DNA of 64,000 nt, taken from Diacronema lutheri. Taxonomy: Eukaryota; Haptophyta; Pavlovophyceae; Pavlovales; Pavlovaceae. The notes beneath the pieces were generated by a model. The model saw only the letters and a program-made list of their open reading frames with translations, made no database searches and had not been told where the DNA came from. Below, in pieces: positions 9,693 through 34,603 of this stretch. Each line of letters opens with the position of its first letter. The first letter of the stretch is position 1. The position numbers were made by a program, and so were the translations under genes. The DNA lies in contig JAGTXO010000044.1 in assembly GCA_019448385.1 (NCBI GenBank), forward strand, positions 248,001 to 312,000, read 5' to 3'.

Positions 9693-9757
9693 CTATATAG
9701 GGCGCGGTCCGGGCTGGTCCGGCCAGTGTAAGGCTGAGAGTACGACCCGGGTCGTAC
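9693..9757. repeat. Left end of copy 1 with two palindromes
   Basis: The element opens with the 8-bp palindrome CTATATAG. At 9740-9757 is a perfect 18-bp palindrome, GTACGACCCGGGTCGTAC. Both are conserved in copy 2. They are candidates for recombinase or transposase recognition sites or for a promoter at the element's edge. Confidence 0.7.
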
Positions 9758-10410: not shown

Positions 10411-10443
<33 letters not shown>

Positions 10444-11276: not shown

Positions 11277-11694
11277 GCTGTGCGAGCGTGCACGCGACGA
11301 GATCTCGTCGGGCGTGCCGTCCGTTCGTTCAGAGCAGAGCGCGTCGGACCGGCAGACAGACGATGCAGCGCGCGAAGGCACCTGCGGCGCGCGGCGTGGC
11401 CTCGCGTGCCGTCACGAAGCCGCCTGCGCGCACTGCGGAGGCGGCGAGCGCGACGAGGGCGGGCGCGGACGAGGTGCTGAGCGGCGTCACGTACGCGCCC
11501 TCGCTCGCCGAGCTCGACGCCGCGGCGCTGACGATGCGCGCGGCGTACCACACCGACCGCCCCTGAGACGATGCGCGGCGCCCGCGGAGGACTGGTCCGT
11601 TGGCGCGCAAACCGTGGGCGAAAGGGCGCGAAGCCAACGGCCGTCCGCGCACGTTCAAACGCGCGCATACGGGTGGCATCCTCCCACCTTCGGC

Positions 11695-12007
11695 GCCGCT
11701 TTCTAAAAGGGTGTAGGGTGTAGGGTGTAGGATGCAAAACAAGCCCTCCCCACATTTGGGCCCGACGTCATTCCTTCTTCGAAGCCGTGACGTTACTCAC
11801 ATACGAGTACCTTTACTTAGTGTAGGATGGATCTATTCTCTAGGTATTTGCATAGTGTAGGGTGTAGGATAAGTACGGTTATGAAAGTCCCATAGGGGGG
11901 AGAAGGAATGACGCTGTGACGAAAGAAGGAGTGACGTCGGGCCCAAATGTGGGGAGGGCTTGTTTTGCATCCTACACCCTACACCCTACACCCTTTTAGA
12001 AAGCGGC
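11695..12007. mobile_element. Nested foldback (MITE-like) element in copy 1
   Basis: Two inverted arms of about 87 bp (11695-11782 and 11921-12007) flank an AT-richer core. Each arm starts GCCGCTTTCTAAAAGG, then three or more tandem GTGTAGG units, then a conserved stretch with GGGCCCGACGTCA. There is no coding capacity. The same element sits at the equivalent place in copy 2, so it entered before the giant element duplicated. The GTGTAGG units resemble telomeric repeats. Confidence 0.8.
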
Positions 12008-12239
12008 GGCGCCTCGGAGCATGGCGGCTCGACAGCATGGCGCCTCGACAGCATGGCGTCGTCCAGCGTCACGCCGCGTCGTGGTCCTGCCGCTCCTCCG
12101 TGGCGCACGGATGGCGCTCCTCCGTGACGCAGCCGAACGACGCCGCGGCGTCACGGCCCGGGCGCAGTCGCCATCCTGGACGCCACGGATGGCGAACCGG
12201 TCGACGAGATCCGGCACGAGGACGTCTGCGCCATCGCCA

Positions 12240-14254
12240 CGCAGCTCGACTGCGTCTACACGGGGCTCACGGGCTCGATGTTTGGCACCAAGTGGAACGT
12301 GTGCGGGGTCATGCTCCCGAAGCGCGCCGAGCAGCGGCCGCAGCCCGGCTCGGACGCCTTCGCCTCGTACAGCGTGGCCGCCTGGGCCGACACGTTCGAC
12401 TCCACGGGGCTGTACGTGCCCGACGAGCGCGAGCGCGCGGCGGCGCTCGCGGCGGTGGCCGGTCTGCGCACGGCGCGCGCGCCGGCCGGGCCGGGCGGGC
12501 GCGAGCTCGCGCGCGCGCAGGGCTACGATCGCGCCGAGCAGGCTGCGAGCGCGGCGGCGGCGCGCGCGGCGATGGCCGAGACCGGCCAGCAGCGCGCGCT
12601 CCACGGCGCGGTCGTCGACTCGGCGCTGCGCGGCGTGGGCGACCGGCTGCACTTTTGCGACGCGCCGGGCGGCACGGGCAAGACGTTCGTCGAGCGCGCC
12701 ATCATCGCCGCCGTGCGCGCGGATGGGCACGCGGTCGTCGTGTGCGCGTCCTCGGGCGTCGCCGCCACGCTGCTGCCCGACGGCCGCACCTTCCACTCGA
12801 CCTTCAAGGTGCCCGTCGGCGCCGACTCGGACGGGCAAGCCGTTCAATGGCGTGCCGCGCTCCGAGCGCGGGCGCTCCGTGGCCGCCGCGGCGAATGATC
12901 GTGGGGGACGAGGCGCCGATGCAGAAGCGGGGCCGCCTCGACTCGCTCGATCGGTGTTTGCGCGACGTGACGGGCGTCGACGAGCGCTTCGGCGGCAAGA
13001 CGTTGCTGCTCGCCGGCGACTTTTGCCAGTGCTTGCCGGTGGTGCGGCGCGGCTCGCGCGCGCAGATCGTGCGCTCCTGCCTCGAGTACTCGGCATCGTG
13101 GCAGCACGATCGGCCGTACGCCTTGGTCGAGAACTCTCGCGCCTCGAACGCGGCGCGCGACACGGGCGACGCGCTCGGCGCGGGCGAGTGGGCGAAGCTG
13201 CCGCGCAGCCTCGGCGACGGCGCCTTTCCCGCGGCGGTGCCGCCTGCGGGGGCCATGCCCGGCGCATTCCCGCTCGATCCCGTGCAGCTGCCCGAGGCGT
13301 CTCGGCCTACCCGGCGGAGCTCGTAGCCACTCGCCTCCTCTCGCTCGGCGAGGGGCTGTGCAGCGGCACGCGGCTGGTCGTGCGCGGCGTGCGCGCCGGC
13401 GGCCGGCTGCTCGAGTGCGCGCGCCCCGGCGCGGCCGCCGGGCGCGACAGCACCGTGCTCATCGCGCGCATCGACCACCACTCGCCCGACGAGGGCACGT
13501 TCGCGTTTGCATGGCTGCACCGCCAGTTCCCGGTGCGGCCGGCGTAACAAGGCGCAGGGTCAAGCGCTCGGGTGCGCGGGCGTGTGGCTCGCCGAGCCGT
13601 GCTTCACGCACGGCCAGCTCTACGTGGCCGCTTCGCGCGTCGGGCACGCGTCGCGCATCCGCTTTGCGCTTGGCCCGGACCATGTGACGCGCACCGTCGT
13701 CTTCAAAGAGGTGCTCCGCGCGGTCAGCGGTGGCGAGGCGGCGGCGGCGGCAGCGGCATTCGCCGCGGCCGCCGTCGCCGCCGCGCGCGAATGCGCGGCG
13801 GCGGCGCGCGGTGGCGGCGGGCGCGGCGGGCGCGGCTCGGACGGCGCGCGCGGCGCCGGCGGCGGGCGGCGCGCTGGCGGCGGGCGCGACGCCGGCGCGC
13901 GGTGCTGCCCAGCACCCGCCGGCGCGACGCCCGTCGCGCCGCTCGCGGCCGACACGCAGCCGGCGGGTGCTCGCCAACACCGCGCGCCGCGCGACTGGCC
14001 CGCGTACCTGCGCGCCCTTCTAGGGCGCGCAGGGCGGCGCCAATGCGGCCGGCAAGCAGGGGCCTCAAGCCGGCGCGCTGCCCGACGCCGCGTGGGTCGC
14101 CGCCGCGCGCGTGCCGTCGGCGCTGCCGCCGTCCGGCGTCGCGCTCGCGCCGCTGCCGCAACCTCAGCCGCCGCCGCCGCCGCCGCCTGCCGGCAAGCAG
14201 GGCAAGCGCGCAGCGGCGGCGACGGCGGTGCGCGGCCCGGCGAGCAAGCGGTAG
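12240..14254 (+). pseudogene. Helitron-type PIF1 helicase, frameshifted (copy 1)
   Basis: The reading frames show ordered Helitron helicase motifs. In frame 2 (12278-12840) are the Walker A sequence APGGTGKTF and CASSGVAATLLPDGRTFHS. In frame 1 (12898-13300) are MIVGDEAPMQKRG and LLLAGDFCQCLPVVRRGS. In frame 3 (13300-13545) are LGEGLCSGTRLVVRG and HRQFPV. Frame 1 (13553-13720) has NKAQGQAL and HGQLYVAASRV, then VTRTVVFKEVL. At least three frame changes occur, and about five codons between QFPVR and INKAQGQ are missing, so a functional helicase is unlikely. A Pro-rich tail in frame 2 (14033-14252) may be its last exon, stopping at a TAG at 14252-14254. No Rep/HUH domain was seen. The helicase would unwind DNA during rolling-circle transposition. 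Confidence 0.75.
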
Positions 14255-15417: not shown

Positions 15418-16811
15418 ATGACGCGTGCACGGCGCAGCGCCTGGAGCAACTTCCGAGTCGTCGGCCGGCAGCCTGTGGGGGGCGCGTTCATCGGCCCGAT
15501 GTGGCCGGTGAGAGTGCCCGACGTGCCGCGTGGTGAGCGCCTGCACGGCTCGCCGGGTTCGGCGCGTTCCCAGTCGGCCTCTCTCCGACCCGCCGTAAAC
15601 CTTGCGTGCGCACCCCGCACACCCGGCGCTGCGCGGCGCGGCGCAGGCGTGAAAAACGAGGGCAACGCGTGCTACGTGAACGCCCTCGCGCAATCGCTCG
15701 TCGCCTTGAACGTGCTCCGTCCGATGCCCCGCTCCGCTTCGCGCCGTGCGGGAAGAGTCGAGAAGGCGCTTTTTCGGGACTTTGGCACGCTGCTCGAGGA
15801 CACCGAGGCGCCGGCACAGCTGTGTCTTGTGTCCGTCGTCGACGTCATCTTGGGCCGTGGCACGCGAGGGACGCAGCAGGACGCTGCTGAGTTCTTCCAG
15901 ATGCTACTCGGCCGAGTGCCCGGGCTCGCTGCTGCCTTCGAAGACGACAGACGCGTAGTGCTCGAGCCGATCGCTGTGGCCTCGAGCGAGCGCGGTGAGG
16001 GCATCGCCATCCTCGTCAGCATTGGCGGCGATGCGGCGCGCACGCTCGCACACGCTCTGGGGGGCGTCGCTGGGCCGCCGCAGGGTGGCAGCCCGGACGC
16101 GTGCCGCTCGGACGTGCTCATGCCAGCCAGCATTGCCGTCGAGGTGCCGCGCACGACGCGCGGCAATGGCTCGCAGTGCAAGAACAAGCACGCGTTCGTG
16201 TGCGCGCCGCGGCTGCTACTCGGCGGGCGCGACTACCTCCTCGTCGCCGCCGTCGTGCACTTGGGCGAGGAGTCGACGAGCGGGCACCTTGTCGCCATCG
16301 TGCTCCGCAACGGGGCTTGGTTTCTGTGCGACGACGACAACGTGCGGCGGCGCGCACGGCCGCTTGGCGCCGCGACCGGCGGTTGATCGCAGCCGCAGCC
16401 GCCCCGTCCTCCCGCGCGGCACGCGCGCGTGGCCTGAAAGCTCGCGCCGCGCGCCTGCCGCACGCACGCGCGTTGCCCGCGCAGATGCACAACTTGTCTC
16501 AGTCCGACGCGCTGGCGTGGGCAAGTGGTGCGAGCATGCTCTTCTACAGCCGGCTCGACGCGGAACCGTTGGACCCGGCGCTGGGCTCAGCGTCACCGCC
16601 GTCGGCCGCATCGCCTGCGTGGCCGAGCTCGGCGCCCGACGCGCCGACCCTGTCGGCAGCCTGGTCGCGGGTGCGGCAGATGGCAGCGGTGCCAACAGAT
16701 GCGACGATCGGCATCGCGGAGACGGCTGCAGACACCTCTGCGGCGGCGATCGGCCCAGCTGCGTGCGAGGCCCGCCAAGTTGTCTCCGCGACGCGCGCAT
16801 TGCCAATGGCG
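15418..16811 (+). other. Ubiquitin-specific protease (C19) module, copy 1
   Basis: The catalytic Cys box, QQDAxEF box and His box are all present and in order, and the Asp-rich DDDN follows the His box. The intron at 16342-16484 joins DDDN to MHNLSQSDALAW and MLFYSRL, restoring the usual USP C-terminus, which strongly supports splicing. USPs remove ubiquitin from proteins. In a transposon it could protect element proteins from degradation or alter chromatin marks (inference). Confidence 0.8.
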
Positions 16812-19800
16812 GTGAGTGCCTCGCACGCGCACGCCGTCCGCTGTCCACAGCGTGGCGCCCGGCGCTTGCGTTCGCGCCAGGTAAAGTTTGCGCGTATAGC
16901 GTGCAGCACCCTCACGCATCCCCTACGCCTCCCGCCCGCCCGACCTCTTGCCCGCCGGCCGCGCGCAGGACCAGCGCACGCCAATTGTTGGGCGCGGCCA
17001 AATCTGGGCATGCGCAAATTTTGAGCCGGCAGCGGAGGGCGGGGATGCGCAGCACAACTGGCGCAAGCGCACGTGGTGCCCGCAGCACGAGCAGCGCGAG
17101 CAGCGCGAGCAGCGCGAGCAGCGCGAGCAGCGCGAGCAGCGCGAGCAGCGCGAGCAGCGCGAGCAGCGCGAGCAGCGCGTGCAGCGCGTGCAGCGCGAGC
17201 AGCGCGAGCAGCGCGAGCAGCCCTGGCAGCCAGCGCGGCCAGGCCTCGGCGCGGGCGCTGGCGTTCGGCCCGCTGCTCTGCCGCCGAGCCATCCGCGCGC
17301 CAGCATGCGCGCGAGCAACCGCTTCGAGCCGCTCTTGTTGGCCGAGGCGGACGTGCCCGCCACCGAGCCCGCCGCCGCCCAGCCCGCCGCCCAGCCCGCC
17401 GCCGAGCCCGCCGCCAAGCCAGCCGCTGCCAAGCCCACCGCCGAGCCCGCCGCCCAGTCCACGGCCCAGCCTCCCACCGTGCCTGACGCCAAGCCAGCCG
17501 ACCAGCCCGCCGTCAAATGCGCTGCCGCCAAGCGCGCTGACGACCGCATTGCTGCCGCTGAGGTAGGCGCCGTCGCCGCCACGCTTGCCGCCGCCACCGA
17601 GCCTGGCGGCGTTGCCGAGCTCGCCGCCGCCGCCGACGAGGGCTGCAGGGCGCGTGCCGACGCGCTCGCCAAGCGCGAGACCCGCCGCGCGCTCCACCGC
17701 GAGCAGCTTTTTCGCGAGGACAAGCGCGCGGCCGGCCGCCTGATCGAGCAGTGCGCGCTGGGCTCTGCGGACGATGCAGCGCGCGCGCGCGCCCTGCTCG
17801 AGCGCGTCAAGGCGCGTGGCCACGCGCTGCCTCCGCACCTGCTGCGGTCGCTGCGCGACCTCGCGTCGCCGCGGCTCGCGCTCGCCGCTGAGGCGGCGGG
17901 CGTGCTCGCCGCGTCCGAGATGGGCGAGGCGGACGCACCTGCGGAGGCGCGCGCGCTACTCATGCACGCCGAGGCCGTGGGCGCCCACCTGCCCGCGCAC
18001 ACAGAGCTCGCGCTGCGCCGCGCCTGCATCCCCACCGCCGAGCAGGCGGAGCTGCTCGCGACTGCGCGCGAGCTGCTCGCGCCGCGCGACCCCGAAGGCT
18101 CGGTGGCTCCGGCGGGCGCGCGTGCCGAGTGCGACGGCGCCGCGCTCGGCACTCGCGCGCGCGAGCTCCTCTCGCGACTCGACGAGGCGCACCTCGACGT
18201 GCAGCCCTGCATTGCGCGGCAACTGCGCCGGCTCGCCGCCACCGAGCCAGACGCAAGTTCGAGCGCTGCGCTCGCCGCCACGCCCGGCACCGCCGGTCGC
18301 GCGGCCGCCGAGCCGCGGCGCGCGTGGCGCCCGCGCGGGTGGCGTCTCGCGGTAGGCGCAAAGGGTGCGCGCGCGCGCGCGCGCGCCGCGGCTGCTCCGC
18401 TCGACACGGCGCCGCCCGCGGCGGCCGGCGCCGTCCCGCCGCTCGAGCCGCAGCCCGAGCGCCGTGCAGCCGACGCCGCGGCCGCCGCAGCGGCGCCGGC
18501 GGCCGGCGACGACGGCGTGGCACGCGCGCTCGCAGCCGCAGCGCGCGGCGACGGCCTCGACGGCGTCGATGGCGCCGACGACCTCGTTTGCGCGCCGTGC
18601 GACCGAGGCTGCGCGCACGCACGCGACGGCGGCTGCTGCGAGCCTGCCGCGCGCAGCTCGCCCGACCAGTGCCCGCGCGCACCGCCGCGGCGCGCACGGC
18701 GGGCGGCAAAGCGCGCGCGCGACCGGCTGCGGAGATCAATCGACAGGTCAGAGCGGGCTGTCGGCCGCCGATTGCGTGGCGGCGACGCGCGCCGCGAGCG
18801 CAAGCGCAGGTGCGCGACGGGCGGCCAGCACGCACCGCAGCCGCTCCGCCGCGCGAGTCGCAGCCCGCCGTCGCGCACCGATCGGCCCTCGGCCGAGCAT
18901 GCCGCCGAGCCTGCCGCCGAGCCCGACAGCCCCCACCGCCGCCCGTGTGCCGGTGCCGCCGTCGCCGTCGCCACTGTCCGGTGCGCCGTCGGCATCTTCG
19001 CGAGTGTCGTCGCCGCCTCTGCCGTCCGGGCCGCCATTGCTCCGGCCGCTCGCCCGTCTGCAGCCACCGCCTTTTGGCTCGTCGCCGTGTGCTCGGCCGC
19101 CGCATGGGCCGCCTTCGCCTCCGCCGCCCGCCCGACCGCCGCCTTGGCCGCGCCGCAGCCTGCCACGCAATCGTCGGCCGCCGAGCCCACCGCCGCCGCG
19201 CCAGCCCCCGCCCAGCCCGCCGCTGCCGAGCCAGCCGCTGCCCAGCCCGCCGCGGCCGAGCCCGCCGTGGCGCAGCGCGACGTCCAGTCCGCCGCCCCGG
19301 CGCTGCTCGCGTGGGCGGGCGACGCGGCTGCGCTCCGGCTGGCCGATGCCGCCGCGCGCGCCGGCATCCCGCAGGCAGAGGTGGACTGCATTGCGGGCGG
19401 CGACATGCTCGCCTCCACTGTGGACGCTTGCTGCGAGGTCGTGCTGCGCGTGCACGGGCAGGCCGGCGAAGGGCGCGTCTGCCACGTACCGCTTGCCGCT
19501 CAGCCCGCGGTGTTCCAGGACGGCGCCGAGCGCGCCGCGCTGCTGCACCGCCTGCACAGCGAGGCGACGACGCAGGCGGTCATCGGCATGTGGAGCCCGC
19601 CGGGCGGGCGCGGCGGTGCGGGCAGTGACGATGGCACGCCGCCCGCTTCCGGCCATTTCACCGCGTTGCGCCTCGTGCGCGTCGCGCGCGCGGGCGAGCA
19701 TCGCTACGACGCGGTGCTTGTCGACACGCTCGCGTCGCCGAGCAGGCAGGCGCTCAAGCGTGCCAGGTCGATAACCGCCACGCTGCACGCGGCGGGCCTC

Positions 19801-20270
19801 GACGTCTTGCCCGTGCGCCGCGCGCGGCTGCTCGACAACGCGGCGCAGCGTGGCGCGACGTGCGGCCTCGCCGTGGTGGGCGCGCTCAACGACGCCGCGC
19901 TCGCTGCGGCGGGCGGTGCATCCGCGCCGCGCACGTTCAGCGTGGCGGACATGTACGCTGTTGGCGAGCACCTCCGCGTCGCGTTGACTGGCGCGGTCAG
20001 CGGGCGTGCGCCGAGCGGCGCCTGCGCCGGGGCGGGCGCGGTGCGCGGCGGGGGCAGCCGCGATCGCGCTGCCGAAGCGCCGCGGCAGACGCGCGGCGCC
20101 AAGGCCGCCGCAGACGCCGCCGCCGCTGCCGCCGTTCCGCCGCCGCCGCCACCTCCGCCGCCCGCGCTGGGCGCCGCCGCCGCCACCACCACCGCCGCTG
20201 CCGCTGCTGCCGCCGCCGTGGCCGCGCCGCCACCGCCGCCACCGCCGCCGCGTGCCGGCGACGAGGGCGA

Positions 20271-20318
<48 letters not shown>

Positions 20319-23300
20319 GCGCACGTTCTTGAAGCTCGCGCCCAGGGCGCGCGCGGCCGCCTCGGCGCGCGAGGCGTTGCGCGCCGCGTGTGCGCGCGCG
20401 GACGCGGCGGCGTCGTCACACGCGTCGGCGCCGCACGCGCCCGCCGATGCGCGCCGCCGGCGGCGCGCGGGCGCAGGCGAGCTGGCGCTCGCGGCTGCGC
20501 GCGCGCTCGCCTCGACGGAGCACGGCGATTTGACGGACGACGCGCTCGAGGCCGCCGTCGAGCAGGAGCTGGGCGACGAGCGCGGCCAACTGCTGCTGTG
20601 CACGCGGGGCGCAGCGGCGCAAAGGCCCGCGCTTTGCCGGCTCCTGAAGCACGCGTGCGCGTCGGCGCGCGCGGCGAAGCGCGCGCAATTCACGGTGTTC
20701 GTCGTGCGCGCGGCCACGCGCGGCGAGCGGGGGGGCGCCGCCGCGAGGCGCGTGGACTCGGTGGTCGAGCTGTCGTGCGCGCTGCACGAGAAGGCGGGCG
20801 CGCTCGGCGGCCTCCAGAGCGTCTGTGTGCGTGGCTTTGCCCTCGAGCGCCGCCGGACACTCGACGCTGGCGCCGAGGCCGGCGCGTCCGCCATCGGCCA
20901 GGACGAGCAGGTCGAGGCAGAGGCGGGCGAGGCGTGCGTCGCCGGCGTGACGATGGCCAAGCAGCTGCGTCAGTTTGCCGAGCAAGCTGCCCGCGACGAC
21001 GTGCTCTTCCGCGTCGCCGTGTCCGAGGCCGACGCCCACGCCCGGCTGGCGCGCGTTGCGGGTGACGATGTCGGCGCGTACAGCGTCGTGCTCGCAGTCG
21101 CCGGGCTCGTCTGGCTGGCCAAGGCCGACGAGGTTGCGCCGGCGGCCGCCCAGTCCGCCGCCGCGCCGCCCGCCGCCCCGCCTGCTGCCGCCACGTCCGC
21201 CGACGCCGAGCGCGACGCCTCGCCTTCCGACCGCCTGCGCGCGCTGACGCTCGCCGTGCGAGTCGCGCTCGCGCGCGGCGTGCTGCGCCACCTCCTCGCC
21301 GACGCGTCGCCGGGCGCGTCCGCGACCGCTGGCGGTAGTTGCGCGACGCCCGTCGACGCGGCCGCGTCCGACGCCGCGCCGCCCGCCACGGGCGTCGTGA
21401 CGAGTGGCGTCGCGGCGGGCGCTGTGGCGGCCGCACCGGCTGCTGCGGGCGGTGCGACGGCGGGTGCATCGCCCATCACGCGGCCGGCGAAGCGCGCGCG
21501 GCGCACGCTCACCGCCGCTCCAGCCGCCTCGGCCGTTGCGGCCGCTGGAGGCGCACGCGCGGGCGCACGCGGCGCGGCCGGCGCGCCTCGCGCGCGCGCC
21601 GCGCGCGCGCCGGCCGAGTACGTCTGGCTTGCCATCGCGCGCCGGATGCTGGCGGCGCGACACGCGGCGGCCGCGGGCGGCGACTTTGTCGCGTCGTGCG
21701 TCGCCGCGATGCAGGCCGAGTACGGCGACGGCTGTGCCGTCGTCGTCGGCGACGCGCCTGGTGACGCCTTGGTCGAGGCTGCGGCGGCGGCGCTGCTCGA
21801 GGGCAAGCACGCGGCGGTGAGCCTCGGCTGCGTCGACCGGCCGGCGGTGCTCGTCGTGCAGCGCGCCGTGGACGCGCCCACGTCGCGCGTGCACGGGTGG
21901 TGCGCGCACGCGGCGGGCGCCGCCGAGTTTGACGAGGGCGCCGCGCACGGCGTGTTCAACGCGATCGTCGAGCGCGCGTGGGCGCTGCGTCCGGACCCGG
22001 CCGACGGCAGCCCGCCGCCCACGCGCACGTGGGAGGTCGAGCGCATCGCTGACGACGCGCCCGACCAGGCGGGCGTGGCCGCGCTGCGCGTGCTCTACGC
22101 GCTCGTCGCGGCGCACGGCCGCTACCGCTCGGCCGCCGCGCTCTTTGGCGCGCTCGCGCAGCTGCACGCGCCCGACGCCGCCGGCGCGCGCGCGGAGGTC
22201 GTCGCGGCGGCGTGCGCGGTGCCGCACGGCGCGCGGCCGGGCGCCGCGCCGGCGGCCGCGCGGGACGACGCGAGGGAGCGCGCATGGGAGGGCGCTCAGA
22301 TCGCCGCGCTCGCCGTCGGCGCGGACGCTGCGCGCAGGCGTGTCGCGCCCGTGCGCGCGCTCGTCGACGCGCTCGGCACGCCACCGACCTCGGCGATCAC
22401 GGGCGGGCCGGCGGTGCGGCTCGCGGGCGCGGGCGACGGCGGCCACGGTGCACGGTGGGTGGGCGGGCAGGCGGCGACGCCCGCCGAGCAGCTGCCGAGG
22501 GAGCTGCTGCGCGCCTACCACGAGGCGGTGCTGTGCGTCACGCCCGGCAGCCTCCAGCTCGGCCCGGCGGCGCTCGACGCGGTCACGCGGCCGCGCGAAA
22601 ACGACACGCTGGAAGGCCTCCTCGCGCGCGTCAGCTGGCAGTGCGGCGCGAGGGCGAGCACGTGCGCCATGCTCGCCACGTTTTCCGAGCAGGCGGGCAC
22701 CGGCTCGCGCGTCGCGCTCAAGGCCCTCCGCACGAGCTCCGACCTGGCCGGGCTGACGGCGGCTGCGGTCGGGCAGCAGGCGCCGCAGACGCCGCCGCCG
22801 CCGCTGCTCGTGATGCTCGGCCGCTGCCCCAGCCCGCTCGTCGGCGGCGGCCTCTTCCCGCCCGACCGCGCGACGGGCGAGCCGGCGGTGCACGCGGCGA
22901 CGTCCGAGCTCGCCGTCGAGCTGCTGCGCGACGCGCGCGCGCTGGCCGGCACGGACGGGCGGCTCGTCGTGCTGTGCCTCGAGGCGTCCAACCCGCTCTG
23001 GTTCTGCCCCAAGGTGCGCGAGCTCGAGCTGCCGCGGACGCGGTCGGACGGCGTGCGCGCGTCCGGCTGCACCTGCCCTGCGACGTGCAGCGATGCGCGC
23101 GGCGCGGCGGGTGGCGCTGCCCGCGGCGCATCGACGCGGCCGGCGGCGCGCGCGATCAACAAGGCGGTGCTCGACCACTTCGTCGCGCTTTTCGGCCGCG
23201 AGGGCTTCGCGACCTTTGAGTTTGCGGGCGGCGGCGAGGCGAGCTGGCTGTGCGACAGCGCGGCCGGCAAGACGACCGTCGCGGCGTGCGCGTCGCTCCC

Positions 23301-26300
23301 GCCGCGCATGGGCGATGGGCAGCTGGCCATCCGGCGGCACACGCTCGGCACGGGCGCCGACGCGCCGGCGCACGCCGTCGTCTCGCTCCGCGTCGCGCAC
23401 GTGAGCCACGCCATCCGCCGCGCGGCGGACGACGGCGGCGCGCGCGCCGAGCGGATGGCGCGCGCCGCGCGCGCGTTTTGCGATGTGGCGGCCGCGCTGC
23501 GCGTCGACGCGATCCTGGCGGAGGTGCCCGAGGACCGCCCGACGGGCACGCCCTTCCTTGGCGGGCTGCTCGAGTTTTGGAACAAACGCCACGGGAGCTC
23601 GACGGCGCCAGCCACGCTCGCGCTCGGAGACGTGCGCGAGGTGGCCAAGCGGACGGCCGACGCAGCGGCCGGCCGAGCGGACGAGGTCCCTGCGGCTGGC
23701 CGTCCGCAGGTCGCGGCGCGCGCGTGCGCTGGCGCGATTGGCGGCGGCGCGGGCGCGGCGGGCGCCTCGGACGCTGCGCCCCGTGCACTGGCGGGCGCGT
23801 CGGGTGCGCGCACGGACGGCGGCCCTGCCGACGCACCGCGCCAGCTGGAGAGCCGCTACGGCGAGGCGAGCAAGCTCGACCTACCCCAAGATTCCACTAC
23901 GGGCTGCGTCCTCGACGCTCGCGAGGCCCAGGACCGCGCGCGCGTGCCTGCTGCGCCCGACGGCACAGCGCTGCGCCGCGTGCTCGACGCCGTCGGCGCG
24001 GGCGCGCCCGCGCAGCGCAGCCCGCGCTGGCACGACGAGCGATGGGAGGAGGTCACGGGCAGCAAGGTTGGCGACGTCGTGAACGACAACGCCGGCGTCG
24101 CGCACGAGACGCTCACCGACGAGTACGTGCACCGGCGGCGGCGCGAGGTGCGGACCAAGGCGACGACCGCGGGCATCCTCGGCGAGGCCGTCGCGCTGCG
24201 CAAGCTGGCGGCCGCGTACGGCATCACCGTCGTGTGCAACCTGCCGATGGTGCGTGCGGACCCGCACGACAAGAGCGCGCCGTTCGCCTTCTCGCCGGAC
24301 GGGCTCGCCATCCTCCCCGAAGACAACGAGCAGGTCCTCGTCGAGGTGAAGACGCTCACCAAGGCGGACGCCAAGGCGCACGAGGACGGGCCGCCGCAGC
24401 CGCACCGCGATCAGCTGCAGCTCGGCATGCACGTCCTCGGCGTGCGCAAAGCGCTCTACGTGCAGTACCTCAGGCACGAGGACCGGATCGTCGTGCACGT
24501 CGTGACGCGCGGCGCCGGCTGGCTTGCATTCGCGCAGCCGAGGGTGCAGGCCTTCTGGGCGCGCGTCGTCGAGCGGCGCGCGCGGCTCGAGCGCGCGCGC
24601 GCCGACCACCCGGCTGCGAGCCGGCGGCACCGGCGGCAGCAGACGCCGGCCGGGCCGCCGCTCGTGCTCGCGCTGGACGGGCGCATCCCCGCCGCGCGCG
24701 CCGCCGCGCTGCACGCCGTCGCGCACGGCACCGCGAGCGCGGCGGCGGTGGCGGCGACGGCGGCGACGGGCGACGCGACGGCGTTGCAAGACGCGATCGC
24801 GGCGCTGCGCGCGCCCGTCGGCAATGCGGCGATCGACAGCGCAGCGCGTGCGGAGCGCGCGGCCGTCGAGCGGGCGATCGCGTACCTCGGGCAGCCGGCA
24901 GGCGACGCCGCCGCCCGCGGCACGGCCGAGGCGGCCGAGGAGGAGAGGACGGTCGACGCCGACATCTGCGCGTTGCTGCACCAGCTCGGCGCGAGCGTGG
25001 CGCACGTGCACGTCGAGGACGCGGATTGCGTCACGCGTGAGCACTGGGGCGGGGCGGTGCTCGCTGCAGCGGGCGACCCGTCGAGCGCCCCCGCCATTTC
25101 GAGCGTCATCGTCGCGCACATCGTGCGGCTCGCCGGCTTTGGCGTCGAGCTCCCGCAGTCGATTCGCGTCGCCCCCAGCACGGCCGACTGGCACGAGGGC
25201 TGGCTCGACGTGCAGTGCGTGCTGCTGCGCACGCGCCGGCGCGGGCGGCGCGACGACGACTTTGTGGCCGTCGTCAGGCGCGGTGGGCGCTGGTTTGCGT
25301 GCGAGCCCGGCCGCGCGCGGCGGCTGCAGTGGCGGTCGGTCCTGCGCCGCGCGCGCGGCGGCGTCGACGGGACCGGCGAGGAGGCGTTCGCGGTCGTCTA
25401 CGTGCGGCGCGGCGACGCGGCCGGCGACGCGGCTGGCGACGCGCAGGCCGAACGGGCGCGCGGCGGGCGCGCGCGCAGGCGCACGCGCGGCGGCACGCGC
25501 AAGCGCAAGCGCGGCGCCTCCGCCGGGCTCGAGGCGGCCGCGCCCGCCGGCGCGCCGGCTGCCGCGCCCGCCGGCGCGCCGGCGGGCGCTGCTCACCGCC
25601 CGCCCGCCATGCGCGCGACGGTCGCCGCGCGCACCACGCGCTCTGTGACCGACGCGCGGCACTCGGCGCCTGCCGCCACGGTTGCACCTGTCTTCGACTG
25701 GCGCGCCGGCCGCCCGCCCCCCGCCGCTCGAGCCCGCCACCCGCGGCCGCGTGGGCGCGCGCCACCGGGCAAGGCCTGGGACAGCGTCTCGGGTGCGTGG
25801 GCGGACAAGCCGACTGGTGCTGCCGTCGCCGCCGCGCCGCCGCCGCTGCCGCCCGCCGCCGCGCCGCCGCCCACCGCCGCGCCGCCGCCCGCCGCCGCGC
25901 CGCCGCCCGCCGTCGCGCCGCCGCCCGCCGCCGCGCCGCCGCCGCCGCCGCCACCGGCGGCGCTCGGCCGCCGGCAGCACGTCGGCGCGGGCGGCAGCGC
26001 GGCGGGCCGGCGGCTCGCGGCCATCGCACGGCGGCAGCGCGGCGTGCGCGCGCCGCCGCCCGCCGCGCGCTTCCTCGCCACGCTGCCGCCACCGCCACGC
26101 GACGGCCTCGCGCGCACGAGCAAGCAGGCGCGCGCGAGGCGCAACGCGGACGGACGGCCGGCGCACGCGCGCGCGGCCAACGCGCGCGCCTTCTACCGCG
26201 GCGTGGAGCTCGGCGTGCACGCGACGCGCGCCATCGTCGACGCGCGCCACGCCGACCTGCCGCAGGCCGTCTTCGTGGCGGAGGCGCGGGCGATCGTCGC

Positions 26301-29300
26301 GCGCTCCGCCGGCGGCGGCGCGCTGCTCGCGCCGGACGACGTGCGCGACCTGTGCGACGCGCAGACGGACGCCGATCGCGCTGCGATCTGGGCGTCGGTG
26401 GGCGCGCACGAGGCGACGCGCATCTTCGCGCTCGTCACGCGCAACGCGAGCTTGGCGGGCGCGGCGCTGCTCGTGCTGCACACGCCGGCGGGCGCGCCGG
26501 CGCGCGCGCTCGGGCTCGTGGCGACGCGCTCGCGCGCGCCGTCGACGGGCGCGCCGCGCGACGCGCACAGGGCGCTGGTGCAGCGGTTGGACGTGCTGAT
26601 GGACGCGATCGCCGCGGCGCGAGGCGCGTCGCCGCTCGAGCTCGGGCTCGCGCTCGCGCCCGAGCCGCAGAGCGCGTGCAACGCGCGTGCGGCCGCGCTG
26701 CTCTGCCTGCAGGCCGTCGCGGACGCGAGCGGCCGTCCCGCCGCTGAGGACGCGCTGGCCGCGCTCGACGACGCGCGCGGCATCGACCGGCACTGCCACG
26801 CCGTCCGGCAGCAGATCGAGGCGAAGCTCGCGTGGCGGCGCGCCGACGGCGCCGTCGGCGTTGACGGCGCCGACGGCGCGCCCGCGCTCGCGCCTGCCGC
26901 CGCACCGCCGGCGTGCGCGCCGGCGCACGCTGCCGGCGAGGCGGCAGTCGACCAGGCGATCGTCACGCGGGTGCGCGACGCGCTGCGCGCGTGGGCGACG
27001 ACTGGCACCGCGCCCAGCGCGGCGGTGCTCGACGACGCCTGCGCCGCGTACACGGCCCGCGCACGCGCGCGCAAGGACGCGCGCACGGCGCTGGGCCCGA
27101 CGCGCGCGGCCGAGCTGCTCGCCGCGGCCGCGCGCGGCGGAGCCGACGGGGCGGATGCCGCGCGCGCGCTGCTCGGCGGCACGCCGCGCCTGCTCGTCGT
27201 GCTCCTCTGCGTGCCCGTCGCCGCGCCGTCCGGCGAGCCGCCGCGCCCGGTCGGGCTGCTCGTCGCCGACCGGCCGACGGACGACTCGCGCCCGGCCGCG
27301 CTCGTGCGCTACGACTTTGCGCCGCTCGACGCGGACGTGGCCGTCGCGGTCGGCGCGCATGCCGTCGCGCTGGCCAGTGCGATCTGGCCGCTGCTCGCGG
27401 CCGAGGGGGAGCCGCGGCCATCGCCCGTCGTGCGCTCGCAGCCGCGCGGCGGCGACGATGGCGCGCGTGCGCTCGCAACGTTCGCGTGCCTCGACGCGCT
27501 GATGACCGCCAGCGTCGGCGCGCACGGCCTCGCGGGCGGCGCGGGCATGCTGCCCGCGCTGGTCGCGCGAGGCGCCGCGGCCGCCCAGCGCGAGCGGCAG
27601 CTGCGCGCGGCCGCCGAGAGGCTGGGCGGCACGGTCGCTGGGTGGCCGGACACGGGCGCGAGCGCGGCGGGCGCGAGCGTCGACGAGGAGGCGCGCACGT
27701 ACGAGGTCGAGGCGGTCGTCGACGAGCGCCGCAAGGCGGGCAAGAAGGTGACGTTCCAGTTCCGGATCAGGTGGCGGGGCTACGACGAGAGCGCCGACAC
27801 GTGGGAGCCTGAGGCCAACGTGAGCAGCGACCTCGTCGCCCAGTTCCGCAAGACGCGCGACGAGCAGAAGCGGCGCGCGGGCGTATCGGGCAGCGGCAGC
27901 GGCGGCGCGGGCGCGGCGTCGGCATTGGCGTCGGCGCCGCTTCGCGCGCACGGCGAGTCGGGCGCCGCGGGCAAGCGCGCCGCGGCGGGTGCCGCCGCGA
28001 GCGCGCGCGACGCCGCGGGCGCGCGCGCGCCGAGCGTTCCCCGCGCGCGCGGCGTCGAGCGCGCGCGCGTGGACGAGCCCGCTGCGCCGAGCGCGCGCGC
28101 CGCCGGCGGCGCGACGGCGCGCACGCGCGGCAGCGTGCTCCCGGGCTTCGTGGTCAAGCGCTCGACGCTCAACGCGGGGCCGCAGGCGGTGACGGCGCAG
28201 CCCGGTGCGCGGAAGGAGCTGCGGCGCATCGCGGCGGCCGTGCACAGGCTCACGACACAGGCGTACCGCGTCATCAACAAGGTGGTGCGCGACGAGGCTG
28301 CGGTGGCGAGCGCGCAGGCCGTCGGCGCGGCGTCGGGCGGCCCGTCGACCAGCGTGCACACGTCGACCACGATGGACAAGGGAACCGTCCGTGCGATCTT
28401 CTCGGCCATCGGCTGGCACAAGGACGAGAGCACGTACGGTGCAGCGCCCCGAGGCAAGCCCGCCGAGCAAGCCGCCGCGCAGACCAAGGCGGCGACGGCG
28501 CGCGCCGTCGGCGAGATGGCCGAGGGCGTCCAGCCCGTCTGCGCGGTGGGCCTCACGGAGATCCTCGAGGCGGAGGCGACGCAGGTGTCCACCGCGTGCC
28601 TGATGCATCCATCGCGCGTCGTGAACGGGCTGCTCCGCGACGTCGTCCGCGCGGCAGTCGAGCGCGACGAGGCGCTCGTCGCGCTGCCCGAGATGCAGCG
28701 AAACGCGCGCGTGCGCGAGCTGTGCGAGCGGCTGCTGCGCGGCGACGTGGAGGGCGCGCGCGTCGGCTGCCCCGCCGCGCTCGACCGCCACCTGCCCGAC
28801 ATGGTCCTCCACAAGATCGACTACAAGTGCACGCCCACGAAAAGGTGGAACTACGACCGGCACACGACGCGCTACTTCCTCGTGCAGATCCGCACCCTGC
28901 AGCACGTGGCCGAGGGGCAGGCGCTGCTCTGCCGGCTCGCGCACATCCACACGCAGCTGACCGGACGGCCGCCGCGGTACAATGTGGCGCCGCTGCGCAC
29001 GCACAATGTGCGCGCGAGGCGTGGCTGCCGCTGCCGCCGCCGAGCGCCCAAGCGCGCGCGCCGCCGCCGTGCGCGCCGCCCCGCGGCCAGGTTGGTCACG
29101 CGCCCGCGCGCTCGCGCGCCGCGCGCTGCGCGCAGGTGCCGCGCAACGTGCGCCTCGCCGCGAGCGCCATCTGGGTGACGCTTTCGGATGACGAGCGCAA
29201 GGAGCTGCGCGCGCGGCTCAAGGCGCTGGACCTGCGCGACCACGATGGCGAGCCGATCAAGTGGACAGGCACAAACGGCAACACCCCGCCGATGTCGGAC

Positions 29301-30860
29301 GTGCGCGTCAGGTACGCGGTCTTTGCGACGCGCTTCGACATCTCCAACCGCGTCTTCGACTACGCCGGGCGCGAGCGGCCGCCGGCCGATCTGCCGTGGC
29401 ACGCGCGGCGCTCGTGGGTTGGCCTCGCGCCGCTGCCGCGCGTGCCGCTCCCGGGCCGGCAGCCCGTCAAGTCGGTGGTGACAGATTGCGTCGCCGTGCA
29501 CGCCGTCGGGACCGTCCTCGTGCCGAAGGCGCAGGCGCCGGCCGGCGGCTCGGGCGTCCTGCACCGCTGGCGCCGGCCGGACGGGCGCATCGCCGTCGCG
29601 CTCGGCTCCGAGCTGCGGCGGGCGATCGACGTCGAGGCGGCGGTCGTCGTCGCGGCCGACCCGAACATGGGCAACATCACCACCTACTCTGCGCACGTCG
29701 GGCGGGCGGCCGTCTGGCGGCAGTTCACGCAGCGCGCGCGCGCGCGCGCCGCGGGCTTTGCGCGCGAGACGGCCAAGACCAACGCGGCGCGGCGGCGCGT
29801 GCGCAAGGACGGGCGCGGCGAGGAGTTCAGCGTGGAGGCGGACGAGGCGCGGCTTGGCGAGGCGCACAGCGCCAAGGTGCTCGACGCGGGCAAATACATC
29901 GCCTTCCACCGCGAGAGCGCGCGGGTGCGCGAGCGCGCCGCCGAGCACGTGTACGACGCGCCGGCGCGCCGGAAGGAGCGCTGGCGGCGCGACAGCGGCG
30001 GGCGGTCCAACGCGGCGCGCGTCGCCGAGGCGCTCATCGCGGCGCACTGCGTCGACGGCGTGACGCGCGACCGGCTGCTCGTGTGCGTGGGCAAGTGGCT
30101 GCGCGACCACAAGGGCGCGCAGCCCAAGGGCGCGCCGCCCGCCTTCCAGGTGGGGCTGCTGCGCGAGCTGCGGCGGCGCGGCGTCGCGGCCGTCTTCGTG
30201 CCCGAGCCGTACACGTCGATGCACTGCTCGATGCCGCGGCTCGCCAAGGGCGGCAGGCTGCAGCGCTGCGGCGCGGAGCTCGCGCAGAACCCGCGCCTGC
30301 CCGTGGCAAAGGGCGGCACGCGCACGGTGCACGCGCTCGTCATCTGCCCGGCGTGCAACGGCGGCAAGAAGCCCGTGCACCGCGACTACAACGCCGCGCG
30401 CAACATCTTCTACGACGTGCACGACATGGCGGCGCACGCGGCCGGGCGCGACACCACGTCGACGCCTGAGCGCTTTGCCCTCGTGCTCGCCTGGTGGGCG
30501 CGCGGCGAGGTGTGGGAGCGTGAGGAGCGCATGGTGCACGGCGAGGGCGACGACTGCGACGACGAGTGCGACGGCGACGACGAGGGCGACGACGAGGGCG
30601 ACGACGACGACGACGACGATGGCAGCGGCGACGGCGGCGGCGGCGACGGCGAGGGCGACGGCGACGGCGACGGAGGCGGCGGCGGCGACGACGACGATGA
30701 CGGCGGGGGAGGCGGCGGCGGCGACGGCGGTGGCGACGACGGCGGCGGGCGCGGCGGCGGTGGCGGCGGCGGCTCTCGCGCCCGCACCCCCGCCCGCGGA
30801 GCTGCCAGCGCCAGTGCCGGCGGCGGCAGCGCGCGCGGGCCGAAGCGCGGCCGGCGTTGA
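15418..30860 (+). CDS. Giant USP / YqaJ / chromodomain / Fanzor fusion (copy 1)
   Basis: Exons are 15418-16341, 16485-16811, 16969-29007 and 29136-30860. The three introns removed are GT-AG and phase 0, leaving about 5,004 codons with no stop. Residue positions are approximate. The ubiquitin-specific protease has Cys85 in NEGNACYVNALAQSL, then GTQQDAAEFF, His290 in SGHLVAIV and the terminal MLFYSRL near 330. An EQR/REQ repeat spans 458-501. A cysteine-protease-like H-D-Q-C set lies at 1313-1382. The YqaJ nuclease has QRSPRWHDERW, FSPDG (Asp2861) and VEVK (Glu2876, Lys2878). The chromodomain at 3995-4045 has FRIRWRGY and DTWEPEANV. Fanzor spans about 4145 to the end, with D4605, E4787 and D4847. 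The start codon is uncertain because the frame is open upstream without another ATG. Transcripts may also be split. Confidence 0.7.
16342..16484 (+). other. Intron 1 of giant gene (copy 1)
   Basis: 143 nt, GTGCGG to GCGCAG, phase 0. Removal fuses frame 1 to frame 3 and completes the USP fold. Confidence 0.75.
16812..16968 (+). other. Intron 2 of giant gene (copy 1)
   Basis: 157 nt, GTGAGT to GCGCGCAG, phase 0. Removal fuses the USP exon (frame 3) to the 12-kb open frame (frame 1). This is the splice that makes USP and the rest one protein. It is less certain than introns 1 and 3 because no conserved domain spans it. Confidence 0.55.
17089..17220 (+). repeat. 9-bp tandem repeat GAGCAGCGC (about 14.7 units)
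   Basis: A near-perfect array with two GTG-for-GAG variants. In frame it encodes Glu-Gln-Arg repeats, a charged flexible or helical spacer. Copy 2 has one unit fewer. Confidence 0.95.
19300..19900 (+). other. Ulp1/C48-like cysteine protease module, copy 1
   Basis: Within the giant frame, SGHFTALRLVRV (His codon 19654) is followed by DAVLVDTLA (Asp 19723), then AAQRGATCGLAVV (Gln 19846, Cys 19861). The order His-Asp-Gln-Cys and the ending x-x-C-G match the C48/Ulp1 arrangement used to cleave SUMO-like proteins. Overall similarity cannot be measured here, so this is a tentative call. Confidence 0.45.
20110..20330 (+). repeat. GCC-rich microsatellites encoding poly-Ala/Pro
   Basis: Several (GCC)n and (CCG)n tracts encode alanine and proline runs, a linker after the protease-like module. 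They are the same in copy 2. Confidence 0.85.
23990..24620 (+). other. YqaJ/lambda-exonuclease-like nuclease module, copy 1
   Basis: QRSPRWHDERWEEVTGSKVG is the usual N-terminal YqaJ signature. FSPDGLAIL (Asp codon 24298) and VLVEVKTL (Glu 24343, Lys 24349) give the D...ExK metal site of the PD-(D/E)XK superfamily. QLQLGMHVLGVRKALYVQY then supplies the conserved Gln helix. All core residues are present, so the domain is probably active. Relatives resect double-stranded DNA ends for recombination. Confidence 0.8.
27690..27870 (+). other. Chromodomain module, copy 1
   Basis: YEVEAVVDERR, FRIRWRGY and DTWEPEANV form a complete chromodomain with the aromatic positions that bind methylated histone tails. 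In retrotransposons and some DNA transposons such domains direct integration to marked chromatin, so a targeting role is likely. Confidence 0.85.
29008..29135 (+). other. Intron 3 of giant gene (copy 1)
   Basis: 128 nt, GTGCGC to GCGCAG, phase 0. It joins APLRTHN to VPRNVRLAASA within the Fanzor domain, moving from frame 1 to frame 3. Confidence 0.8.
30541..30780 (+). repeat. GAC/GGC repeat encoding an Asp/Gly tail
   Basis: A low-complexity trinucleotide-rich stretch giving an acidic Asp/Gly C-terminal tail to the Fanzor. Confidence 0.85.
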
Positions 30861-31277
30861 CGCACGGCCGAGCCGCGCAGCGGTCGACGCTTTGCGGGCT
30901 CTGCCCAGGTCGCGCGCGGCTGGCGACGCGTGCCGCGCGCGGCACGACCGTGCACGCCGCCACCCGTGGCCGAGCGCGCCGCACCAGCCGGCCCGCTCCA
31001 ACCGCCGTGCGGATCACGGACGCTCGCTACGGCTCGTCGGCGCGCGTCACCTGCGCCGGCGGCCACGGCGCCGTCTGCTCCGGCCTCGTCGCGAGCAGCC
31101 CGACCGCTGCTCGCCGCCCGCACGCCGCCGCAGCAACGCTGCGCGTCGTGCTCCCCCGCTCGCCAAACGCGAAGAGCTCCCTCACAAGGACGTCCTTCCG
31201 AACGGCCCGCGCTGCACTCGGGGCGCGATCGTGCCCCTGATCGGATTTGGCTTGACCATCTATACTGAAGTCAGATT
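30861..31277 (+). other. Right end region of copy 1; candidate Fanzor guide-RNA site
   Basis: No protein domain was recognised. Fanzor and TnpB guide RNAs are usually made from the 3' end of the gene and the element's right end, so this 417-bp stretch is where one would expect it. A near-perfect hairpin, GGGGCGCGATCGTGCCCC, lies at 31220-31237. A CTGA occurs at 31236-31239 and again at 31265-31268. These recall the hairpin plus CTRR end of Helitrons, but the spacing is not canonical. Confidence 0.35.
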
Positions 31278-32564: not shown

Positions 32565-33482
32565 TCAGAGCGCGCTGCCCGGCCCCTCGACGAGCGCGAC
32601 GAGCCCAAAGACGAGGAAGAGGCTACCGCCCACGAACGCAACCATGCGTTCCGAGATGCGGCTCGCGAGCATCCGGCCGCCCACGACCGCGAGCCCGGTG
32701 CAGAGCGCGTGGCCGATCGTACCGCCAAGCGTCACTCCGAACGGGTCCTTTGCCGCCGCGAGCGCGATCGTCGCGATCTGCGAGCGGTCGCCCCACTCGG
32801 CGAGGAAGGTGAGCGAAAAGGATTGGACGAATGCGGGGGGCAAGAAGGCGCGCTTCCGCCCGGCCTCCTTGCGGCTGCTCGCCGACCCCGCCTCGACATC
32901 CTTTAGCCCGCTTGCTGACTTCTCCGGGTCGTCCTCCTCCTTCTTGCCCAGCTCCGCCTCCACCTCCTCGAGCTCATCGCTCGCAACGCCGCCCTCCATC
33001 TGCGCGGCCTGCGCCGAGACGCATCGACGGCGTTCGAAGAGCGGACGTGGACGCGGCACGCCGCCGCAACGCAGCGCGCGTGAGCACCTGCGCGCCGCTG
33101 GGCGGCGGCTCGCGGCCGCCTCACCAACGCGCGCGCGCGCGGGGCGCGCGCGACGCACATCCTTGAGGAGGCGCACTCCAAAGACGAGGAAGAGGAGCGC
33201 GGCGGCGTAATGCGTGTATGCTTTTGGCAGCATAGATGGGAGCGCATGGCCCATCAGGCACGAGAGCACGGTCATCAGCCCGAGCGCGCAGATGGCACCC
33301 GCAAAGATGATGCCGCGCGGGTGTCGCATCGCCATGATCGCCGCGATGAAGAACGTCTTGTCGCCCAGCTCGGAGACGACGATGACGGAGAGCGAGGCGG
33401 CAAAAGCCTGGCTGAACTGCGGGCTGAAGAAGCTGAACACGCCATCCGGCTGGTGTGCTATCGGCAATTCGGCCGCAGCCAT
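32565..33482 (-). CDS. GDT1: GDT1/TMEM165-family cation transporter
   Basis: UPF0016 family membrane protein, which transports Mn2+/Ca2+ in the Golgi or chloroplast envelope. Exons 33482-33159 and 33008-32565 give 255 residues. The intron 33009-33158 (GTGCGT to GCGCAG) keeps frame, but its translation is Arg-rich and interrupts the central acidic loop. Both family signatures are present: SELGDKTFFIAAIMA at about 38-52 and AEWGDRSQIATIALA near 178-192. There are three hydrophobic helices on each side. The acidic loop between halves (EELEEVEAELGKKEEDD) is typical. Its ATG lies 101 bp from that of the divergent OTU gene. Confidence 0.88.
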   Translation of the reverse strand: MAAAELPIAHQPDGVFSFFSPQFSQAFAASLSVIVVSELGDKTFFIAAIMAMRHPRGIIFAGAICALGLMTVLSCLMGHALPSMLPKAYTHYAAALLFLVFGVRLLKDVRRARPARARVGEAAASRRPAARRCSRALRCGGVPRPRPLFERRRCVSAQAAQMEGGVASDELEEVEAELGKKEEDDPEKSASGLKDVEAGSASSRKEAGRKRAFLPPAFVQSFSLTFLAEWGDRSQIATIALAAAKDPFGVTLGGTIGHALCTGLAVVGGRMLASRISERMVAFVGGSLFLVFGLVALVEGPGSAL

Positions 33483-33583
33483 CGGCGGCGGCTCCCGCCC
33501 GCCCGAGACTGGTCGCGCGCGCGCCGAAACCGGGATCGGTCCCCAGACGTGGGGTGGGGAGTGGGGAACGACAGACTTTTCCC

Positions 33584-34603
33584 ATGTCGGCTACTCCACT
33601 AACCCCGCTTGTGCGCCAGCTCACGACGCACTCGGAGGCTAGCCAGGTCGCCGAGTCGCTCGGTTTCGTCCGCCGAGAGATCCCGCCCGACGGCAACTGC
33701 CTCTTCAGGGCGTGCGCCGAGATCTGCCTCGGCTCGCAAGGGCGGTGCGTTGAGATGAGGGAGGCCGTGCGCGGCTACCTCGCCGCGCACCGCGAGCGCT
33801 TCGAGCCATTCGTCGAAGACAATTTTGACGAGTACCTGTCAAAAGTTGGGCGCGACGGCCACTGGGGCTCGGACCTCGAGCTGCAAGCGATCGCCGAGCT
33901 CCACGACACGCAATTCACAGTGTACGCCAACAACCGACTCAACTCGGTCACCATCGCGCCGAGCAGGCGCGGGGCGCGCCGCGCCGCGGCGCTTTGGTTC
34001 TCACACGGCAACCATTACGACGCGCTCTACACGCCACACGAGTTTGCACGCCGCGGCTTCAGCGCGAGCGCCAACGCGGAGCTCGACGAGTTTCGGCAGA
34101 AGCGGCGCGAGGACGAGGCCAAGAGCCTGCAGCTTGGCCGCGAACTCTCTGAGGAGGGCAAAGCGGACGGCACGCACACAAGCGCGGATTGGATGATCCG
34201 CGGCAGCGATCACCGCGAGGCCACGCCCAATCTGATGGATGCCGACGTTGGCGCCACGCTGGGCGGCCTGTCGTTGCAGCTCTCCACCGCGGCGGTGGGC
34301 GAATCATCCGGGCAGAGCATCCAGCAGCAGCAGCAGCAGCAGCCATCCACCGACGGCAGACGGCTGCCGCCGCTCCCGCCCACCCCGCCCGGCGCGCTGA
34401 GCGAGGACCAGCGCCGGCGGCCGACGATATCCAACCTACTTGCCGCGGGCTTCAGCGAGGCCGAGCTCGCGCAGCAGTTCAACCCACCTCCCGCCTATTC
34501 GACGGCGACGCTGCCGCCCGAACTTTTGCGCCGGCACACCGTCATGTCCATGCTTGAGGCGGGCATCAATGAGGACGAGATCCGCAGGCAAATGCAGCCG
34601 TGA
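33584..34603 (+). CDS. OTU-family deubiquitinase
   Basis: A 339-residue protein from the ATG at 33584. The OTU cysteine-protease fold is clear. PPDGNCLFRACAE carries the catalytic Cys39 with Asp36, WGSDLELQAIAELH is the central helix, and FSHGNHYDALY carries His144. Such enzymes cleave ubiquitin chains. The C-terminal half has a DEFRQKRREDEAKSLQL helix, which may bind ubiquitin, a seven-Gln run (CAG repeats, 34321-34344) and two repeated RR-T-SNLLAAGFSE / RRHTVMSMLEAGINE motifs. The gene converges with the SAM-domain gene, their stops 34 bp apart. Confidence 0.88.
   Translation: MSATPLTPLVRQLTTHSEASQVAESLGFVRREIPPDGNCLFRACAEICLGSQGRCVEMREAVRGYLAAHRERFEPFVEDNFDEYLSKVGRDGHWGSDLELQAIAELHDTQFTVYANNRLNSVTIAPSRRGARRAAALWFSHGNHYDALYTPHEFARRGFSASANAELDEFRQKRREDEAKSLQLGRELSEEGKADGTHTSADWMIRGSDHREATPNLMDADVGATLGGLSLQLSTAAVGESSGQSIQQQQQQQPSTDGRRLPPLPPTPPGALSEDQRRRPTISNLLAAGFSEAELAQQFNPPPAYSTATLPPELLRRHTVMSMLEAGINEDEIRRQMQP

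Follow-up and report, generated by a model that had tools for sequence, protein, structure and literature searches.

Transposons that carry Fanzor1 have been described in eukaryotes (Bao and Jurka 2013, PMC3627910; this and the other papers given by PMC number are cited from extracts of their texts). An element that can be compared with them is present in the alga Diacronema lutheri, in a stretch of 64,000 nucleotides (nt) termed here the window (contig C70, positions 248001–312000). As in the described transposons, it is a repeated DNA element that encodes a RuvC–zinc finger protein with the motif D...TS..C4...RD. Unlike those transposons, its Fanzor sequence makes up the C-terminal part of a 5,004-codon frame that also displays USP deubiquitinase, YqaJ exonuclease and chromodomain sequences, and the element is 21–31 kb in length and has a very high copy number. 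A search of PMC3627910 gave zero hits for the words “fused”, “protease”, “ULP1” and “exonuclease”. An earlier note on this DNA had known of no described element with this combination of four domains. None was found in a literature search, and we could not find a Fanzor1-bearing transposon of this kind in the accessible text of the open papers searched.

SpuFz1, a characterised Fanzor1 (PMC10432273), is similar in its DPN-type first RuvC motif, and a short AT-rich recognition motif would fit the TATA found here; SpuFz1, however, stands alone as a protein, and the element that it comes from is small. Helitron2 of green algae (PMC3627910) has in common with the present element a PIF1 helicase, a 3′ hairpin, an excess of 3′ ends and the carriage of Fanzor, but here a Rep domain was not found in the frames scanned, the termini are different and TATA is present on both sides. 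The YqaJ/lambda-exonuclease and RecE family of phages and giant viruses shows similar E-D-ExK-Q type motifs and a profile match; there it is paired with a single-strand annealing protein, whereas here it is fused to a chromodomain and Fanzor. In chromodomain transposable elements (chromoviruses), the chromodomain adjoins the integrase. The element described here likewise has a chromodomain within an element protein, but it adjoins Fanzor, not an integrase.

The reading preferred here, taken as a whole, is given about an even chance of being correct. It holds that a giant and recently active family of Fanzor1-bearing DNA transposons has as its coding core one spliced gene, in the order USP, long linker, YqaJ/RecE-type exonuclease, chromodomain and Fanzor1 nuclease, and that the RNA-guided cutter and the end-resecting nuclease help to keep and spread the copies by recombination.

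The reading frame, its introns and its domains

The frame is located on the + strand at 15418–30860. Removal of three introns (16342–16484, 16812–16968 and 29008–29135) leaves 15,015 nt, or 5,004 codons, in which the only stop codon is the terminal one. All three introns display GT...AG borders and are in phase 0 at every junction, as the earlier note had it. A chance open reading frame is ruled out: at 79% GC the longest open stretch is 4,092 amino acids (aa), compared with a six-frame maximum of 1,760 aa in 200 first-order Markov sequences and 1,093 aa in 200 shuffles. Opposite-strand shadow frames in the window reach 1,778 aa, and thus length alone is a weak argument for shorter frames. The GC content by codon position is coding-like in 17 of 17 blocks, i.e. 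lowest at the second position and highest or tied at the third, and is flattest at 17.5–19.3 kb.

Exon 1 (15418–16341) encodes the USP deubiquitinase, with a Cys box at 15646 and a His box at 16279 in one UCH domain (Pfam UCH, E-value = 7.3e-15), and exon 2 (16485–16811) encodes the end of this domain. Exon 3 (16969–29007) comprises the linker, YqaJ, the chromodomain and the N-terminal part of Fanzor. Exon 4 (29136–30860) encodes RuvC and the zinc finger of Fanzor (DPN at 29658, RD near 30381), an acidic/glycine tail and the stop codon. All are on the + strand. Near the start of exon 3, at positions 17082–17221, there is a 9-nt tandem repeat (QRE units) whose length differs between copies by 9 or 27 nt, with the frame kept.

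A second copy of the element on contig C71 (type B) was used as the comparison partner for the window copy (type A). The YqaJ/RecE-type exonuclease (24028–24435, +) scores 15.9 bits with PF09588 in the window copy and 28.2 bits in the C71 copy, the latter alone passing the Pfam cut-off of 22; the region 23800–24600 matches the RecE-like exonuclease PHROG 434 (E-value = 7.1e-18), and the E, D and ExK motifs are present. The chromodomain (27700–27852, +) is matched by PF00385 (6e-12, 45.7 bits) and by solved chromodomains down to 7.1e-9. Fanzor scores 27.3 bits at 30168–30407 with PF07282, Cas12f1-like_TNB (cut-off 26.3), and the pattern D-X(125,275)-[TS][TS]XX-C4 zinc finger-X(5,50)-RD is found starting at the DPN motif. 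The NCBIfam model guided_TnpB gave 12.1 bits, short of its cut-off of 100, but this is a bacterial model and hence weak contrary evidence. A PDB sequence search found relatives neither for the Fanzor frame nor for the YqaJ part.

The earlier note had assigned these domains and had placed the catalytic residues of USP, YqaJ and Fanzor in the frame. Motifs of all three enzymes were located, and the Pfam profiles bear the assignment out for UCH, Chromo and PF07282; for YqaJ they do so in the C71 copy and not in the window copy. On the profile and motif matches, all four domains (USP, YqaJ, chromo, Fanzor) are judged to be real, with the catalytic motifs of the three enzymes.

An H-D-Q-C pattern resembling ULP1 was seen by eye at 19303–20013 (+), where a Pfam match is absent and the structure model is poor. 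ULP1-like proteases suggested by eye at several places in the linker were not confirmed by Pfam and were set aside; the model of one such segment has a mean predicted local distance difference test (pLDDT) score of 47.5.

Introns 1 and 3 are independently supported, because insertions or deletions (indels) between A and B that are not triplets are located in them, while those of the exons net triplets. The A/B indels in USP exon 1 are 6 and 3 nt, and that in intron 1 is 1 nt. In the part of exon 3 shared by the two types, indels net multiples of three and the frames are open in both A and B. Within positions 29008–31265 the sole A/B indel is of 2 nt and lies in intron 3, where one of 20 Fanzor loci fetched from the genome (L044) likewise has a 2-nt insertion. 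In addition, only with intron 1 excised does the UCH match extend to profile position 254 of 254 (63.4 vs 57.7 bits, E-value = 3.3e-17).

Intron 2 is plausible. Its donor, GTGAGTGC, is common to types A and B, and A/B homology stops right after it. This break suits an exchange within an intron but is not proof of splicing. Intron 2, and hence the link of USP to the rest of the frame, is accordingly weaker than introns 1 and 3.

The locus may instead consist of two or more genes, i.e. a short gene for USP, made up of exons 1 and 2, and downstream of it a YqaJ–chromodomain–Fanzor gene with its own start codon. Nearby downstream starts exist in both types (“MRASNRF...” in the window, “MEDSVKD...” in C71), USP evolves without constraint while the nuclease cores look constrained (see below), and the independent support seen for the other two introns does not extend to intron 2. 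On the other side, exon 2 has no conserved stop codon, and an unspliced reading runs into stops that differ between A and B and are unconserved. The common donor GTGAGTGC also speaks for splicing, as do the fit of phase and frame in A and an in-frame CAG acceptor in B. Separate genes are a real possibility, although not the probable arrangement; one polypeptide from USP to Fanzor, hinging on intron 2, appears likely. The interpretation offered in the earlier note, one polypeptide or a self-processed polyprotein whose parts could work in concert, is supported in part, namely as to the transposon gene, the four domains in a splice-consistent frame and the motifs of the three enzymes.

The element, its copies and its termini

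The type A copy of the window is approximately 21.6 kb in length (9693–31264, +), its ends being set by comparing copies and by probes for the ends. A second type A copy begins at 46502 and runs off the end of the window at 64000 (+). The genome assembly searched has 43,492,796 bp in 103 contigs. It contains 202 exact 3′ motifs, 150 exact 5′ motifs and 230 occurrences of the Fanzor RuvC-III motif (≤2 mismatches), in agreement with the earlier view that this is a transposon gene. The observation in the earlier note is confirmed, and was understated: the note was right on the frame, but overlooked where the element ends, how many copies there are, that one type exceeds the other by 9.4 kb, the broken PIF1 helicase upstream, the copy from 46502 and the lack of a recognisable transposase.

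For pairing of ends, 100 listed 3′ ends (of the 202) and 76 of 100 listed 5′ ends (of the 150) were used. A listed 5′ partner was found for 47 of these 3′ ends, and 53 were without one. The pair lengths are 21.4–21.6 kb (11 pairs), 26.0–26.5 kb (5), 29.1–29.4 kb (6) and 30.5–31.1 kb (22), with three further pairs at 12.7, 16.0 and 32.5 kb. The paired ends therefore form about four size classes, from 21.6 to 31 kb. When the best ~40 candidates of each DNA-probe search were scored, two type A-specific probes each gave at least 31 copies at ≥99% identity, and a type B probe gave at least 40 copies, all at 100%. At 150 copies of about 27 kb the family would amount to roughly 4 Mb, or about a tenth of the genome. 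In the extracts of the D. lutheri genome paper (PMC8379373), most annotated repeats are long terminal repeat elements (LTRs) and long interspersed nuclear elements (LINEs), and no word beginning with “transpos-” occurs in the main text available; RNA-seq was used for the annotation published there.

The type B copy on C71 is 31.0 kb in length, 9.4 kb longer than type A. The two types are ~99% identical in the left module and, repeat-length indels aside, from ~20.5 kb to the 3′ end; between these near-identical ends they are 4–10% divergent or not homologous. Such near-identical ends with different middles are the pattern that recombination or conversion would leave. In type B a further open frame, of 1,345 aa (L003:3526–7560), lies between USP and the shared part, with splice-like phase-0 junctions, and thus the type B gene may be longer still. 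A Pfam match was not found for this 1,345-aa frame; by eye it has an H-D-Q-C pattern like that of ULP1.

The element begins with TATATA... at its 5′ end and finishes with ...CATCTATA at its 3′ end. CATCTATA is found in all 20 loci fetched by the Fanzor probe, and the next base is C in 18 of the 20 distinct copies that have one (window copy counted once). CTATA flanks both sides in 11 of 11 junction pairs read. As a candidate for the short direct repeat expected of a Crypton it is partly a matter of choice, since the patterns searched for contained 5′ CTATATA and 3′ CTATA and 8 of the 11 pairs were picked by the 5′ pattern; by eye there is no repeat or target duplication beyond CTATA. With a probe free of this choice, 9 of 40 listed 5′ matches begin at the second base, so that the leading C is not fixed. 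Terminal inverted repeats, as expected of a DDE transposon, were not seen: the outer 600 nt at the two ends share no inverted match of >9 nt.

The 404-nt tail after the Fanzor stop codon (30861–31264, +) is non-coding, has a terminal hairpin, ends with the element and is a candidate guide-RNA region. It shows zero differences between A and B. Rfam gave zero matches in 9600–31400.

The left module (9689–12069), ~99% identical between A and B, gave no Pfam domain in the C71 minus-strand frames scanned. It includes an 89-nt inverted repeat (11691–12011) whose arms, 11691–11779 and 11923–12011, are 98% complementary. TGTAGGG-like repeats are contained in this segment, and in C71 the stretch corresponding to 11694–12187 is inverted next to a direct copy. 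A PIF1-like helicase remnant follows at 12587–13230 (+) in two frames, 12587–12829 and 12892–13230 (PF05970, E-values = 6.5e-19 and 2.7e-23). The C71 helicase is split as well, and also includes a Pif1_2B domain.

Two frames that flank the insertion are probably host genes: 4285–5445, a tyrosine phosphatase (5.7e-36), and 33455–34603, an OTU protease (2.2e-14). A repeat that was not recognised, starting ACTAACGACGC, adjoins insertions in the flanks of L034, L037 and L045 and in the left flank of L073.

Among the ends listed, the starts of contigs C1, C5, C6 and C12 and the ends of C71 and C43 are within about 15 nt of an element 3′ end; the starts of C10, C26 and C29 are probably flush with one too. 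Only one contig start is near a listed 5′ end (C69, 65 nt). The flush contig ends could be assembly breaks or reflect a chromosome-end preference. The telomeric position at which they hint was not adopted, as assembly breaks account for them equally.

Maintenance of the element and alternative explanations

From the domains and motifs, the splice-consistent frame, the copy number, the shared ends and the different middles, all of them observed, we infer each functional step of the following proposal. Transcription across the 3′ end of the element would yield a guide RNA whose last 15–20 nt are host flank. Known Fanzor guide RNAs come from, or end at, the element 3′ end (PMC10711439), and the tail here is in the same place. 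Fanzor with this guide would cut the empty site, with the TATA adjoining the insertion as recognition motif. In SpuFz1 the metal is coordinated by D383 and N385, to which the DPN here is comparable, and known Fanzor motifs include CATA and TTAAN (PMC10432273), comparable to the TATA at both ends here. YqaJ may then resect the break, leading to repair from a copy that still carries the element, so that copies would be retained and homogenised. The chromodomain could take the protein to marked chromatin, and USP might strip ubiquitin off histones or repair factors, or protect the protein. Integration would be by a recombinase that was not recognised here, or one supplied in trans.

A bolder form of this proposal, which we consider rather improbable, is an RNA-guided homing protein that has ~5,000 residues and may be larger still in the 31-kb type. 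By chromatin binding, empty-site cutting with a guide derived from its own flank, resection and ubiquitin editing it would cause repair to copy a 21–31 kb element, resulting in >150 very similar copies with exchangeable middles and without a classical transposase of its own.

Several results weigh against the preferred reading. Besides the low YqaJ score of the window copy, both copies read have broken helicase frames, and by Pfam no Rep, recombinase (including the tyrosine recombinase that a Crypton would have) or DDE transposase was found in the open reading frames scanned (those of the window and part of the C71 frames, not the 26- and 29-kb classes). An empty site was not recognised among the sequences examined, so that TATA is a candidate target or motif; CTATA at the 5′ end belonged to the pattern by which most junctions were picked. 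Folding of the tail has modest or no support (z = −2.23 for 31085–31264 and −0.90 for the entire tail). Ratios of nonsynonymous to synonymous rates (dN/dS) between A and B are 1.09 in USP exon 1 (dN 0.140, dS 0.128), 1.67 in exon 2 and, with about a dozen differences, 1.06 in exon 4. Among copies, nonsynonymous to synonymous changes (N/S) relative to expectation are 1.55 in the N-terminal part of Fanzor (27901–29007, L027–L046; 29 N to 7 S), although these changes are mostly carried by only one or two copies.

Other ratios are lower. The shared exon 3 has an A/B dN/dS of 0.54, to which its first 400 codons contribute most, and N/S among copies is 0.43 of expectation in exon 4 and 0.58 around YqaJ. 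The values among copies come from 20 of 20 Fanzor loci and, for YqaJ, from the window together with 14 of 20 loci; L007, L012, L013, L014, L025 and L026 were excluded for indels. The frame is open in 20 of 20 fetched loci for exon 4 and in 18 of 20 for the YqaJ region. It should be noted that fetched loci are the top-scoring matches, and that L011, L027 and L053 are the window copy and L038 and L052 the second window copy. By these ratios the nuclease cores (0.43 and 0.58) look constrained, in contrast to USP (1.09) and the N-terminus of Fanzor (1.55); the numbers are small.

These data bear on a further explanation, that a non-autonomous element carries the giant gene as cargo and is moved by enzymes supplied in trans, with Fanzor, YqaJ and USP giving no help to its spread. 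The lack of a recognised transposase in the frames scanned and the broken helicase of both copies agree with this. The N/S of 0.43 and 0.58 in the nuclease cores argues against it, and so does the preservation of open frames, but the latter is seen in best-matching copies and could be explained by their youth alone. We regard the cargo explanation as unlikely, but to be kept in mind.

A rolling-circle Helitron with captured genes is improbable. The PIF1-type helicase, the 3′ hairpin and the 3′ ends that outnumber the 5′ ends are suggestive of one, and Helitrons are known carriers of Fanzor (PMC3627910). The defining features, i.e. Rep and 5′-TC/CTRR-3′ ends, were not found: the sole Helitron_like_N (Rep) match of the genome (L067, C63:34238–37519, E-value = 8.3e-23) is outside the element and none is in the frames scanned, the 3′ end is not CTRR, 5′-TC is absent and TATA is on both sides. 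A Helitron was therefore rejected as the carrier.

An endogenous DNA virus or virus relative, suggested by the occurrence of PIF1, YqaJ and Fanzor genes in large algal viruses, is very improbable and was rejected, as capsid, packaging and polymerase domains are absent in the frames scanned and three probes found no match in viral contigs, a set from which close records may be missing.

According to PMC10432273, it is not known what Fanzor does biologically. The element of D. lutheri, an alga with a small genome, has a very high copy number and joins Fanzor in one frame to a nuclease for resection, a reader of chromatin and a deubiquitinase. The idea of cut and copy for eukaryotic Fanzor becomes testable in such an element. 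If one protein is made, an RNA-guided cutter would be naturally fused in it to a nuclease of recombination and to a chromatin module, and the combination of domains hints at an unusual way in which an element may keep and copy itself.

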